Positions 45,454 through 53,379 of a DNA stretch of 64,000 nucleotides are shown here, piece after piece. The position numbers and the translations under genes are program-made. This DNA comes from Maricaulis alexandrii (GTDB taxonomy: Bacteria > Pseudomonadota > Alphaproteobacteria > Caulobacterales > Maricaulaceae), in the NCBI RefSeq assembly GCF_005871165.1, contig NZ_SWKP01000003.1, positions 1 through 64,000 on the forward strand, in the 5' to 3' direction. Within the stretch, counting starts at the first letter, position 1; the number at the start of each line of letters is the position of its first letter. Below the pieces are notes generated by a model. The model saw only the letters and a list, made by a program, of their open reading frames with translations. It was not told where the DNA came from and did not search any database.

Positions 45454-47670
45454 TCAGTTCAGCGTGGAGCGGAAGGACAGGCCGATAATGCGCGGCTCGT
45501 TGACGAAGCCGGTATTGTTGTTGAAGTCGATCCCGCCGACGAGGTTTTCCTCATCCGTGATATTGCGCACGAACAGGGCCGCCTCGTAATCGCGACCGGC
45601 CTCGCTGGTGCCCGCATAGCCCAGACGCAGACCGCCTTCGAAATTGCCGTCGGAATAGAATTCCTCGGACTCATAGAGGAAGAGGTTGGTGTGGCCCTGG
45701 TAGAACCAGTCGGTATAGGCGAACCATTCGCCATTTTCTCCGGCCGGGATGGAATAGCGGGCGGTGAAGGACAGGATCATGTCCGGTGCCTGCGGGAAGG
45801 GATTGCCGTCGACTTCGTGGAAGCCGTCATTGTCCGCATCCGGGTCCAACACGGTGCACTGGGCGCAGACACCGACTTCGAGCAGGTTGTCCTGGAGTTC
45901 GGTCTCGTTCCAGGAGAAGCCGGCTGTCACGAAGAGATTGTCGGTGACGACGAATTCACTGTCGATCTCGATACCATAGCCGACACCGCGATCCGCATTG
46001 ACCAGCTGGACCAGATTTCCGCCGCCGCCGACGGCGGACAGCTGCAGATCGTCGACCTGGTAGTAGAAGGCAGTCGCGTTGAAACGGGCCCGGCCATCGA
46101 AGGGCTCAGACTTGTAGCCGATCTCGTAGGAGATCGAGGTTTCGCTGTCGGCCACGGACGGCGGATTGAAGAAGGCCACGTCACGCGCCTGGATCGACGG
46201 GCCGCGGAAACCGCGGGCAATCCGGGCGAAGACGGCCTGGCGGTCATCCAGATCGTAATAGGCCGAGAGGTCCCAGCTGACCTGCTCGTCTTCCACCGAC
46301 ACCGGCTGGACCGGGAAGTTGGTGACGATGCCCGTCATGAACTTCTCGTCATTGGTGAAGCGGACGCCGCCGGACACTTCCAGGCGGTCGGTCAGCTGGT
46401 GGCTGGCCTGGGCGAAGACGGACCAGAGCTGGTTCTTGTGACGCACCGTGGTGGACGGCGGAAAGCCGCCATTCGGGCCGACCGTGGTGATGTTGAACTG
46501 GCTGTCGAAATAATAGGCCCCGACCTGCCAGGTCGTCGGCTGGTCGTCCGCCGAAGCGAGGCGGATTTCCTGCGTGAACTGGTCCAGCTCATCGATCCCG
46601 TCCTGGGTTTCCGACGGGAAGGGGATGAAGCCGGGACCGGTGACCAGATTGCCGCCATCGATATCGCCCAGGGAGTAGCCCTCGGCGGTTTCCACGGCAG
46701 TGATCGAGGTCAGGGTCAGACCATCCATGTAGTAATTGACCGTCGCGCTCGAACCCCAGCTGTCATAGGCCTGCGGGTTGTTGAAGGCGCTGTCGAACCA
46801 GACCGTGTCGCGGTCGAAATTGCCGTTCAGATCATTATTGCCCGGGCCGACGATATTGGCGCGGAAGACGGCGGACGTGCCGCGCAGCGAACGGCCGTGA
46901 ATGTTGAACAAGGCGTCCAGGTTTTCGGTCGGCGTGAACAGGAGCTGGGCGCGGGTCGCCCATTCGCGGTGGCTGCCCATGACATTGTCTTCACCTGTGA
47001 AGCCATTGTCGATCCAGTCTTCCCGGTTCTGCGTCATCAGGGAGAGACGGCCGGACAGCACGTCGTCCAGGATGGCACCGCCGAAGGCGGCCTCGGCATT
47101 GATCGTGCCCAGCGTGCCGACGGCGATCTGGGCGTAGCCGTCCAGCTCTTCGGTCGGGCGGTTGGACGTGAAGGAGATCGTGCCGGCGGTCGTGTTGCGG
47201 CCGAACAGCGTGCCTTGCGGGCCGCGAGCGACTTCAGCCTGGGCGATGTCGAACAACGGGAAGGATTTCAGGATGACGTTTTCCATCACCACACCATCCA
47301 TGATCACCGAGACCGGCTGCGAGGCGGCCAGGTCGAAATCGGTATTGCCCAGACCCCGGATGTAAAAGCGCGGCGCGACGCGGCCATTGGAGCTTTCCGC
47401 GTAGAGGCTCGGCACGCGGGCGGCCAGGGAGAGGATGTCCGCACCACCTTCGGTGAAGGGGGCGAGCTCGGCGCCAGAAGACGCGGTCACGGAATTGGCA
47501 ATGTCCTGGATGTTTTCTTCACGGCGGGTCGTCGTGACGATGATGGTTTCGACCGTCGAAGGCGCGGTTTCATCCTGGGCGAGAGCCACGGGCGTCGCAG
47601 CAAGCGACAGGGCCAGGGCGCTGACGCCGGAGCGGATCAGGGCCGTGCGGGAGAGGGGGGAGCGGGTCAT
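45454..47670 (-). CDS. TonB-dependent outer-membrane receptor
   Basis: 738 residues with a Sec signal peptide (ALSLAATPVALAQ). The plug domain begins after VETIIVTTTRREENIQDIANSV, the TonB-box region, and includes RFYIRGLGNTDFDLAASQPVSV, where the ARGPQGTLFGRNTTAGTI plug motif is diagnostic. The 22-strand barrel follows, ending in GLSFRSTLN with the expected terminal aromatic pattern. Proteins with this IQDI-type plug are abundant in Caulobacterales and take up siderophores, vitamins or oligosaccharides. The ligand is unknown. It has AAAGGGACC before the ATG and stands alone. Confidence 0.92.
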   Translation of the reverse strand: MTRSPLSRTALIRSGVSALALSLAATPVALAQDETAPSTVETIIVTTTRREENIQDIANSVTASSGAELAPFTEGGADILSLAARVPSLYAESSNGRVAPRFYIRGLGNTDFDLAASQPVSVIMDGVVMENVILKSFPLFDIAQAEVARGPQGTLFGRNTTAGTISFTSNRPTEELDGYAQIAVGTLGTINAEAAFGGAILDDVLSGRLSLMTQNREDWIDNGFTGEDNVMGSHREWATRAQLLFTPTENLDALFNIHGRSLRGTSAVFRANIVGPGNNDLNGNFDRDTVWFDSAFNNPQAYDSWGSSATVNYYMDGLTLTSITAVETAEGYSLGDIDGGNLVTGPGFIPFPSETQDGIDELDQFTQEIRLASADDQPTTWQVGAYYFDSQFNITTVGPNGGFPPSTTVRHKNQLWSVFAQASHQLTDRLEVSGGVRFTNDEKFMTGIVTNFPVQPVSVEDEQVSWDLSAYYDLDDRQAVFARIARGFRGPSIQARDVAFFNPPSVADSETSISYEIGYKSEPFDGRARFNATAFYYQVDDLQLSAVGGGGNLVQLVNADRGVGYGIEIDSEFVVTDNLFVTAGFSWNETELQDNLLEVGVCAQCTVLDPDADNDGFHEVDGNPFPQAPDMILSFTARYSIPAGENGEWFAYTDWFYQGHTNLFLYESEEFYSDGNFEGGLRLGYAGTSEAGRDYEAALFVRNITDEENLVGGIDFNNNTGFVNEPRIIGLSFRSTLN

Positions 47671-49466: not shown

Positions 49467-51143
49467 TCAACGATCGTTGGAGGCTCGGCGTTGCGGCTGT
49501 TCCAGCGTGTCCGCAGGCGGTTCAGGGATGAAAAGATAGAAGCGGCTGCCCTGACCCGGTTCCGACTCGAGCCATATCCGGCCCTGATGAAGGTCCGCGA
49601 CGCGGCGGCACAGGGCCAGCCCGATACCAGACCCTTCAATCTCGGCCTGGCCATGCAGGCGTTCGAAGACTTCAAAAATGCGGGTGAAATGGGTGGGGTC
49701 GATCCCGATGCCATTGTCTTCCACACAGAGGGTCGAGCCGCGCGCAGAGCGGTTGGCCGTGATGCGGACCAGAGGGGGCGCCTCACTGCGGTATTTCAGC
49801 CCATTGGACACGAGATTCTGCAGGGCGCGGGTGAGCAGGAACCGGTCTGCGATCACAGGCGCGTCGAAATCCCAGACCAATTGGCCGCCGCTCTCCTGTA
49901 ACGGGGCTTCGAGCAATTCCTCGATCTCGAGCGCCAACTCTTCGGCGGTGACGGGTTCCGGATTGATTTGCGCGGTGTCGGCCTGGGTATAGGTCAATAG
50001 GTCCTGCACCAAGCGTTGGGCGCGCTCGGCCCCGCGATTGATCCGGTTGAGCATGTCCTGGCTGTGATCGTCCATCTCGGCATGCCGGTTCATCAGGATG
50101 GAAGACATGCCCTGCATGGTCCGCAAGGGGGCTTGCAGGTCATGGGAGGCGTGGGCCGCGAAGCGGGCCAGGTCGAGATTCTTCGCTTCGATAATCGCCT
50201 TGCTGCGTTCGAGTTCGACCGTCTTGCGCCTGACCTCCATGCGGATGTCGACCGCACGGCGCGCATCTTTCAGGGAAAGCGCACCCAGTGTCATGGTGGC
50301 GAACAGGGAAAAGGCCAGGACCAGCCAGGGAAGGGGGCCGACGCGGAGGAGGAAGGACCGGCGCGGCACCAGGATCAGTTCCAGCCCCTCGAAGGCCCCC
50401 GGCGCGGACCATTGCAGGCGGAAGGGCGAGGCGTTGAGCAGGCTTGAAATGTCTGGCAGCTCACGCGCCTCCTCGCCCGCTGGACGGGTCAGGGCGATCG
50501 CGGGCTCATGACCCGGAATCGAGGCAATCACCCACAGGATCGGCGAATTGACCCGATCGGGCGGAAGCAGGCTTTCCACATGCGCGGCGATGAACACGCG
50601 TGCAGGCGTTGACGGCGAGCGATCGCGGACCAGCGCAAACCGAAGGCCGGACTGAGTGTCATCCGGGAGCGCGACAAGCCGGTTGTCGGTGTTGAGCCGG
50701 TCACCGGTCATGCTCGAATAGAGCGCCTGGGCTACGTCATCGGCCACATGATCGGGGTTGGTGGAATCGAGAACGGCGGACGGGATGTCGTAGGCGACAT
50801 ATCCGGGTTGCGGTCTGGTCTGCAGACCCGGACCCGCAAATACCGATTCGACATCGGGAAGGCTCAGGCCGGCGTCGAGGGCGCGCGTATACTCATCCAG
50901 TTGCACCGCCATGCGTTCCAGAGCCCCCGCGAATTCACGGCTCACCACATTCGCGGCTCTTCGAAACTCGCGTTCCTGCGCCCGGCTTTGATTGACCAGT
51001 GTGGCAAAGAACAGCGACAGGGACACGATCAGGCCAAACAGGATGATGGTCACCGGGGTCCGGTAAGCGTCCAGAAGTCCTGTGAGCGTTTCATATCGCT
51101 CGTCGGGCGTTAGCTTGGCGGTATCAGTGCGCGGACCGGTCAT
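49467..51143 (-). CDS. sensor histidine kinase paired with an ethylene-receptor-like protein
   Basis: 558 residues from the ATG at 51143. Helix 1 (about 30-51), an extracytoplasmic CHASE-like region (about 52-265) and helix 2 (about 268-291) come first. Then a HisKA domain with [10 protein letters not shown] (phospho-acceptor H334) and a HATPase domain with [10 protein letters not shown] (N box, N443), [17 protein letters not shown] and GSGIGLALC. The catalytic set is complete; there is no receiver domain. The HxxHDLQAPL box is typical of phytochrome/ethylene-receptor-type HWE-unrelated kinases. It begins 7 bases after the stop of the stand-alone sensor domain gene, so the two are co-transcribed. 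Confidence 0.9.
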
Positions 51144-51150
51144 GGCGGGA

Positions 51151-51534
51151 TCAGTCCGGCTCGGGCTCGATACGGGTGAACCGATCAATCAGGACCGGCA
51201 GGAGGGGCAGCATCAGGACGGCTGTTGCAACCGAGGCCGCGGCGGTCATGAGTTTCAGGATGCCTTCCAGGTAATAGATAGGCACCCAGAGCACCACGAT
51301 GCTCATGATGTGATTGATGCCGCAGAACAGGATGAAAATCCCGAACATGATGAAGGCCCAGCGGAAGGGGATCGGTCGGTCCAGCCGTCGCAGGAAGACA
51401 ATAATGGTGATGGGAATGGAGAAGTAGGCCAGCGCGATCGCCAGGTCGGCGATGACATGCATGCCGACGAGCTCCGGACGCCAGAGGTAACACATGCCAT
51501 GTGGCATGAAGTTATTGATGTTGAAATAGTCCAT
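51151..51534 (-). CDS. stand-alone ethylene-receptor-like three-helix copper-binding domain
   Basis: 127 residues from the ATG at 51534. Three helices (about 26-49, 57-82, 86-114) match the N-terminal domain of plant ETR1 and cyanobacterial SynEtr1. The residues needed for Cu(I) and ethylene binding are all present with correct spacing: D30, Y37 and P41 in IADLAIALAYFSIP, and C71 and H75 in FCGINH. In ETR1 these are D25, Y32, P36, C65 and H69. FMPHGMCYLW at the N-terminus is typical of bacterial relatives. Unlike those, no output domain follows; the kinase is encoded next, 7 bases downstream. Ligand binding is inferred. Confidence 0.82.
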   Translation of the reverse strand: MDYFNINNFMPHGMCYLWRPELVGMHVIADLAIALAYFSIPITIIVFLRRLDRPIPFRWAFIMFGIFILFCGINHIMSIVVLWVPIYYLEGILKLMTAAASVATAVLMLPLLPVLIDRFTRIEPEPD

Positions 51535-52719: not shown

Positions 52720-53379
52720 ATGCTGTTGTGTCTGCAAAATCTTTGTTCGCCGGAAGAGGTCACCCAGCTCCGGCAGCTGGCGGCGGAAAGCGAGTATGCA
52801 GATGGCCGCAAGACGGCGGGCTGGGCAGCCCGCGAAGTGAAGCGCAATGAACAGGTCGAGGCCGGCCCCCGCATCGACACAATCCGGAGCCTGGTTCGCA
52901 AGGCGCTGGAGCGGAATGCACTTTTCAACAGTTTTGCCCAGCCCAAATCTGTCACCCGCATGCTGGTCTCGCGTTACACGACGGGCATGGAGTATGGCCG
53001 GCATGTCGATGATGCCTTGATGGGCGGACGCCGGGCGGATCTCTCCTTCACGCTCTTCCTGTCGGATCCCGACACCTATCAAGGTGGCGAATTGGTCATG
53101 GAAGGGGTTGAGGGCGAAACCGAGATCAAGCTCGCGCCCGGTGAAGCCGTGATCTACCCAACAGCCTCCCTGCATCGGGTCTCAGAGGTGACGTCCGGAG
53201 AGCGTCTGGCCGTGGTGGGGTGGGTGCGCAGCCTGGTCCGGCGTCCGGACCAGCGGGAGGTCCTGTTCGACCTGGACCGGGTTTGTCGCAGCTTGTTCGA
53301 GAAATCCGGGAAAACCGAGGAATTGGACGTCCTGCTGAAGACCAAGTCGAACCTGCTCCGCCAGTGGGCGGAAGACTAG
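52720..53379 (+). CDS. PKHD-type Fe(II)/2OG hydroxylase (PiuC/YbiX family)
   Basis: 219 residues, near the 225 usual for the family. The iron triad is visible: YGRHVDDALMG (HxD near 93-95) and SLHRVSEVTSGERLAVVGW (distal His, then the 2-oxoglutarate Arg). FLSDPDTYQGGELVM and the C-terminal PDQREVLFDLDRV are also characteristic. In other bacteria members are iron-regulated and sit beside TonB receptors. Here the neighbour is an unknown lipoprotein on the opposite strand. It converges with a GNAT gene, sharing CTAG at the stops. Confidence 0.9.
   Translation: MLLCLQNLCSPEEVTQLRQLAAESEYADGRKTAGWAAREVKRNEQVEAGPRIDTIRSLVRKALERNALFNSFAQPKSVTRMLVSRYTTGMEYGRHVDDALMGGRRADLSFTLFLSDPDTYQGGELVMEGVEGETEIKLAPGEAVIYPTASLHRVSEVTSGERLAVVGWVRSLVRRPDQREVLFDLDRVCRSLFEKSGKTEELDVLLKTKSNLLRQWAED

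Follow-up and report, generated by a model that had tools for sequence, protein, structure and literature searches.

Bacterial ethylene receptors are described as fused proteins in excerpts from two reports (PMC11819568, PMC6682694). AzoEtr1 of Azospirillum brasilense, an ethylene-binding receptor in the PMC11819568 excerpts, joins an ethylene-binding domain (EBD), a cytoplasmic PAS domain and a histidine kinase in one chain of 525 aa, without a second membrane-spanning sensor. SynEtr1 of Synechocystis and the plant receptors ETR1/ERS1 likewise carry a three-helix, copper-dependent EBD upstream of a histidine kinase, fused to it with GAF or phytochrome-like domains between (excerpts from PMC6682694). 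Isolated 1-130 fragments of AzoEtr1 and SynEtr1, expressed as GST fusions in yeast, bind ethylene according to excerpts from both papers; binding thus does not depend on the kinase. The PMC11819568 excerpts also cover ETR1 Asp25, Cys65, His69 and Lys91 and a total of seven binding residues. Fungal ethylene-receptor homologues without kinase parts appear in an excerpt from PMC5285503. Because EBD and kinase are fused in the plant and bacterial receptors, signal transfer is hard to dissect.

Here we describe a locus in which these two parts are encoded separately. In the window, the whole stretch of 64,000 nucleotides of Maricaulis alexandrii DNA that was analysed, two adjoining genes encode the following proteins:

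51151..51534, (-) strand: free-standing EBD protein of 127 aa with three hydrophobic helices (Pfam ETR1_N match)
49467..51143, (-) strand: partner histidine kinase of 558 aa (HisKA and HATPase_c matches), whose orthologue adjoins the EBD in 8/8 Maricaulis having an EBD

The TGA stop of the EBD gene, reached after 127 aa, is separated by 7 bases from the ATG of the kinase gene, which lies in a different frame. EBD and kinase are therefore separate chains in the window, unlike the single-chain receptors of the ETR1, SynEtr1 and AzoEtr1 type, and the kinase is a membrane protein of its own. The start codon at MDYF is supported by the alignment of the eight Maricaulis orthologues, which begins at M(D/G)YF. 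One EBD was found in this genome, and it is 90% identical to that of Maricaulis parjimensis (L171). A TonB-dependent receptor gene (45454-47670) and a gene for a PKHD-type 2OG-Fe(II) hydroxylase (52720-53379) lie near the pair, and relatives of both lie near the pair in other Maricaulis. A search of the open-access literature, covering titles and the starts of abstracts and leaving most subscription papers and bioRxiv outside, had among the papers listed none on a free-standing EBD paired with a kinase and no paper joining an ethylene receptor with Maricaulis.

The ethylene-binding-domain protein

The sole Pfam family matched by the 127-aa protein is ETR1_N (PF25487), with an E value of 1.3e-33 and a score of 115.6 bits against a cut-off of 27. 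The match spans residues 22-116 and positions 2-95 of the 97 in the profile. This profile search, proposed by a first-pass annotation made from the letters alone, thus gave a match far beyond chance and bears out its reading of the protein as an ethylene-binding-type domain and nothing else. A sequence search of the PDB with the EBD returned no match at E 1.

One close comparison is with AzoEtr1, whose N-terminal domain is shared with the window protein. The EBD of A. brasilense MTCC4039 is 41% identical to that of the window, and the 525-aa protein that contains it has D35, C75, H79 and K98, the residues given for AzoEtr1 in the PMC11819568 excerpts. These align with D30, C71, H75 and K94 of the window protein through a single-residue gap. 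Compared with this Azospirillum receptor, the window protein has one more residue in the loop between TM1 and TM2.

The window EBD keeps D30, Y37, I40, P41, I68, C71, H75 and K94. Five of these (D30, Y37, P41, C71 and H75) had been singled out as conserved by the first-pass annotation and are all present, as are I40, I68 and K94. Residues were counted in an alignment of 119 EBDs, made up of 13 from the split clade described below, the window's among them, and 106 from outside it; this count and the first EBD tree omit 13 duplicate or partial rows. The equivalents of the seven binding residues and of Lys91 are unanimous in the 13 split-clade EBDs. For four of these residues, positions and counts are as follows:

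51445..51447, (-) strand: Asp30, equivalent to ETR1 Asp25; 13/13 split-clade and 99/106 other EBDs
51322..51324, (-) strand: Cys71, equivalent to ETR1 Cys65, copper cofactor residue; 13/13 split-clade and 103/106 other EBDs; lost in the degenerate loci L279 and L280
51310..51312, (-) strand: His75, equivalent to ETR1 His69, copper cofactor residue; 13/13 split-clade and 104/106 other EBDs; lost in L280
51253..51255, (-) strand: Lys94, equivalent to ETR1 Lys91, receptor output; 13/13 split-clade and 98/106 other EBDs; present also in L279 and L280

The remaining ethylene-binding residues of ETR1, which we take to be Tyr32, Ile35, Pro36 and Ile62, have equivalents in 102, 91, 85 and 98, respectively, of the 106 other EBDs, besides all 13 of the split clade.

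Outside these seven residues, a PHGxCxxW motif precedes TM1 (window residues H12, C15 and W18). Its His, Cys and Trp are each found in 13/13 split and 101/106 other EBDs, and the motif is possibly a second metal site or a disulfide.

Among the eight Maricaulis orthologues the EBD has a mean pairwise identity of 0.83, and over its first 120 codons mean pN is 0.072, versus a pS of 0.54, across Maricaulis species pairs. The EBD is under purifying selection. The retention of every binding residue in Maricaulis and the other intact members, together with the low pN, points to use of the site.

The partner kinase

The 558-aa protein has the phosphoacceptor and ATPase domains of a HisKA kinase with their motifs (Pfam HisKA, E 2.1e-12; HATPase_c, E 3.7e-25). 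These matches and the coordinates agree with the first-pass annotation, which had placed the EBD gene 7 bases upstream of a complete histidine kinase. The parts of the kinase, with their mean pairwise identity among the eight Maricaulis species, are as follows:

50988..51092, (-) strand: kinase residues 18-52, predicted cytoplasmic N-terminal helix and TM1, a proposed contact with the EBD; identity 0.86 and 0.78, respectively
50349..50987, (-) strand: kinase residues 53-265, predicted periplasmic sensor region, dCache-like at best; identity 0.35
50268..50348, (-) strand: kinase residues 266-292, predicted TM2, from the hydropathy of the M. parjimensis orthologue and a model helix at 271-311; identity 0.65
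49974..50174, (-) strand: dimerisation/phosphoacceptor domain (HisKA match) with the motif SHD containing His334; S333 and H334 invariant in 13 kinases; identity 0.80
49524..49847, (-) strand: ATPase domain (HATPase_c match); identity 0.65

A side feature of all eight Maricaulis partner kinases (window, L171-L176 and L038) is SND(R/H) at the extreme C-terminus.

The sensor region had been called CHASE-like, a label that did not survive: Pfam gave no CHASE match in the window kinase or seven relatives, and no assigned sensor domain in the window kinase. One of the eight kinases scanned, a relative, matches dCache_1 with an E value of 4.1e-6, which is below the curated cut-off. A Foldseek search with the full kinase had only kinase and kinase-containing structures among the matches listed, and the N-terminal half was therefore modelled and searched alone. 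The resulting model (pLDDT 76.9, pTM 0.67) has helices at residues 20-26 and 28-90 in the stretch of the N-terminal helix and TM1. It retrieved nothing at an E value of 0.001 or better, and its weak matches include domains of LuxQ, CqsR, Mlp37, DctB and PctA. On these Pfam and structure searches the putative periplasmic sensor is dCache-like at best, and not CHASE. The layout of TM, periplasmic alpha/beta region, TM and kinase resembles that of dCache/LuxQ-type kinases, with weak structural matches; unlike those kinases, the window kinase has no Pfam sensor assignment and is accompanied by a membrane EBD subunit.

The identities listed above were set beside those of two control kinase families from the same species and of the same layout, with region borders set by hand; a third candidate set did not have the two-TM layout. 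ChvG has identities of 0.86 in the N-terminal helix, 0.94 in TM1 and 0.87 in the periplasmic region, and the corresponding values for a 946-aa kinase are 0.37, 0.86 and 0.79. Since the TM helices of the controls are equally or more conserved, and the N-terminal helix of ChvG also reaches 0.86, what is unusual in the partner kinase is the drift of its periplasmic region and not the conservation of its TM helices. Such drift beside well-kept membrane parts would fit an input that arrives through the membrane.

Recurrence of the pair and variation of copper-site residues

The survey for the same split pair that the first-pass annotation had suggested found both genes in 8 of 19 Maricaulis genomes, each with an EBD above the Pfam cut-off, and neither gene in the other 11, two of which are incomplete assemblies (G067, 65%; G079, 69%). 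Full-length kinase orthologues, 45-66% identical, are confined to the same eight genomes and adjoin the EBD, whereas in the other 11 the matches listed reach the kinase half alone, starting at residue 213 at the earliest. Presence and absence of the two genes are thus coupled. In the eight genomes the pair is flanked by a gene for a secreted protein on one side and a TrhO-type rhodanese gene on the other. The secreted protein of the window matches no Pfam family, and a provisional label of 'imelysin-like' was dropped on that ground. In three pair-less genomes (G067, G063 and G077) the flanking genes are adjacent, their matching parts lying ∼85-140 bases apart. In the other eight, no match to the secreted protein turned up in the region examined, which in G079 stops at a contig end. 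A TrhO tree of 18 genomes, from which the row of the incomplete G079 was omitted, requires at least four changes of pair presence.

A scan of named genomes gave 45 EBD loci, of which 44 were analysed (L215, a 44-residue match, was left out). Thirty-one EBDs are fused, 11 are free-standing and two (L206 and L213) are cut or unclear, so that fusion is the usual state, as the first-pass annotation had supposed. A kinase of TM-periplasmic-TM layout lies directly downstream of all 11 free-standing EBDs. In a simple hydropathy scan, by comparison, only one of the 31 fused proteins has a hydrophobic stretch after the EBD (L201, residue 804).

EBD matches were also surveyed in overlapping samples of the family (28/137 genomes, 24 over the cut-off), order (38/398, 35 over), class (28/385, 28 over) and phylum (29/398, 28 over); matches that fell short of the cut-off in G072, G074, G075 and G121, and a second such match in G064, were not accepted as EBDs. 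Most surveyed EBDs lie in long open frames, of which many were viewed up to 500 aa past the EBD and from which six edge loci with erroneous coordinates (L081, L095, L100, L108, L126 and L127) were omitted; L074 and L099 have one hydrophobic stretch in the output part. Across the 44 loci and this frame survey, with many frames seen to 500 aa past the EBD, no fused protein of EBD-TM-sensor-TM-kinase form was seen. In the order of G678, EBDs occur in 9 of 114 genomes, in short frames in six and at fused length in four, one genome having both.

In a first tree of 119 EBDs, the 13 split EBDs form one clade (100/89), and the short-frame EBDs L082, L105 and L213 fall outside it. For the second tree (118 rows), three split EBDs were added and the long or divergent rows L103, L104, L105 and L130 were left out; a single branch, supported at 100/99 and present in 100% of 200 bootstrap trees, separates all 16 split EBDs from the other rows. 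Both trees rest on few alignment columns, and the bootstrap of the first had not settled. The long branches of L279 and L280 join each other, and their exact position is tentative. Every split-clade locus examined has the pair. The 16 alphaproteobacterial pairs, eight from Maricaulis and eight from others, share one layout; when the first start codon is taken, their two genes overlap by as much as 8 bases or lie up to 13 bases apart (the kinase start of L280 is approximate). Other alphaproteobacteria have the split as well, and it is no peculiarity of Maricaulis.

The tally of split pairs leaves out two short-frame loci: L213, which lies close to a contig end, and L082 in G503, which has an apparent frameshift. 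In G503 (L137:7002-8264), EBD and kinase lie in two frames, the sequence is of the fused type and the kinase has no TM sensor; this locus resembles a fused receptor that has been broken or misassembled. G447 (L140:7332-9175; EBD L105) holds a separate split pair, in which a gene for a divergent free-standing EBD-like protein overlaps that of a two-TM kinase. It resembles the window pair in this adjacency and differs in its CHASE3 sensor (E 7.6e-19), in its very divergent EBD with Asp replaced by Asn, and in a kinase that is not matched by the profile described next.

This profile, A4, was built from the N-terminal half of the kinase in 13 pairs. In the 385 class genomes, with up to five candidates scored per genome, full-length A4 matches occur in just the three genomes that have split EBDs, all three of which were in the model; four further matches are partial and weak. 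Held-out kinases beside the three new EBDs match A4 with E values of 4e-39, 4e-47 and 1e-49 (in a six-sequence set), and neither control, the CHASE3 kinase of G447 nor the 946-aa two-TM kinase, is matched.

Copper-related neighbours vary. In three loci of one order (L139, L177 and L178) a SCO1/SenC gene with a CxxxC motif directly precedes the EBD. No SCO1 match was found in the 906 bases before the EBD of L278, an intact member of the same order, in the 12 kb surrounding the intact L180 and L188, or in the window. SCO1 thus adjoins the EBD in 3/7 intact loci searched versus 0/2 degenerate ones. An earlier formulation, that SCO1 accompanies the intact EBDs of this order, is weakened to 3/4 intact versus 0/2 degenerate there, L278 being the exception. 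In the degenerate EBD of L279 (6728-7249) Asp is replaced by Glu and Cys by Gly, and in that of L280 (6533-6994) the Asp, Tyr, Pro, Cys and His are all lost; the Lys is kept in both. No SCO1 match was found in 13 kb at either locus, and the gene upstream in L280 is that upstream of SCO1 in L177 (63% identical). Both remain paired with the same kinase type. Because L279 and L280 lack copper-site residues yet keep the kinase, copper or ethylene cannot be the ligand in every member. A response regulator gene lies downstream of the kinase in 8/8 non-Maricaulis pairs (by Pfam in L177, by similarity or eye elsewhere), and none was found among the conserved neighbours of the eight Maricaulis loci, where families were scanned for the window only.

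How the two proteins may work together

EBD and kinase very likely form one functional unit. With a probability of roughly 0.6, the two genes encode a single two-subunit receptor in which a copper-bearing EBD signals in trans to the kinase. The comparative data speak for a signal passing between EBD and kinase, in line with the first-pass proposal of a signal passed in trans to the neighbouring kinase; the physical contact in that proposal is a point that we infer. The small protein would be the sensing subunit, its three helices placing the N-terminus outside and the C-terminus in the cytoplasm, as the spread of arginines suggests. Cu(I) held by Cys71 and His75 would allow ethylene or a similar small unsaturated gas to bind. 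In the kinase dimer, the EBD would pack on the conserved TM1 and N-terminal helix, and its ligand or copper state would reach the phosphoacceptor helices in trans by way of the helices in the membrane. The periplasmic domain, which drifts fast, may serve as a scaffold or as an additional input under weaker constraint. The EBD probably binds copper, a likelihood that we lowered slightly because the intact L278 has no SCO1 gene directly upstream; that ethylene is the natural ligand has just under an even chance.

The degenerate and SCO1-linked loci bear on two other explanations. Cu(I) occupancy itself might be the signal, with an SCO-type chaperone delivering the metal in some lineages and the kinase reporting copper supply, so that the pair would be a copper or redox sensor and not a gas sensor. 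SCO1/SenC directly before the EBD in L139, L177 and L178 speaks for this, as do the copper-site losers L279 and L280, which have no SCO1 match nearby even though L280 shares an upstream gene with L177. However, all seven ETR1 ethylene-binding residues are kept, beyond the copper ligands, SCO1 could equally load a cofactor, and no SCO1 match lies near the EBD in the window or in the intact L278, L180 and L188; we regard this explanation as unlikely. A reading in which the kinase requires the EBD-like subunit for its structure or assembly, the subunit's ligand having changed between lineages and ethylene binding being ancestral and not used for signalling in Maricaulis, is distinctly unlikely. 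L279 and L280 would fit such a role, having lost site residues while keeping the Lys94 equivalent and the same kinase type, but the full binding site of Maricaulis and the other intact members, and the low pN, weigh against it.

The completeness of the kinase, with its own TM and periplasmic region and weak dCache-type structural matches, could also mean that the genes are merely co-transcribed, the dCache-like domain of the kinase detecting a ligand in the periplasm and the small protein having a separate role, such as copper or alkene binding. We consider this improbable, given the pairing over distant lineages, the matches of the held-out kinases, the joint presence and absence, and a periplasmic part far less conserved than TM1 and the N-terminal helix. 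A last explanation is that the split reflects a frameshift from sequencing or assembly, or a fused receptor that broke recently. G503, where the kinase after the EBD is in a different frame and has no TM sensor, is a possible example. For Maricaulis, a frameshift is excluded because 16 pairs share one layout and their EBDs form one clade. The variable spacing, the purifying selection on the EBD, and the presence at the start of each kinase of a TM1 and a periplasmic part, absent from every fused EBD protein analysed, likewise make this explanation barely credible. The outcomes that the first-pass annotation had named as damaging to its proposal (no domain match, loss of C71 and H75 across the family, or a frameshift) did not occur in Maricaulis.

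The recurrent two-gene module is therefore best read, from comparative sequence evidence, as a split ethylene-receptor-like sensor. A broader proposal, to which we give a little less than even odds, is that it represents an undescribed class of two-subunit receptor, in which the EBD fold would be a separable, in-trans subunit of a dCache-like kinase and would join a hydrophobic gas in the membrane to a periplasmic cue, with SCO-type copper delivery in some lineages; elsewhere copper would have been dropped and another ligand taken, while the coupling surface with the Lys91 equivalent (Lys94) was kept. With separate proteins of 127 and 558 aa, binding, copper loading and coupling can each be tested singly, and the degenerate members separate coupling residues from ligand residues. 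The module further suggests that a genus of marine heterotrophs may be able to sense ethylene or alkenes.
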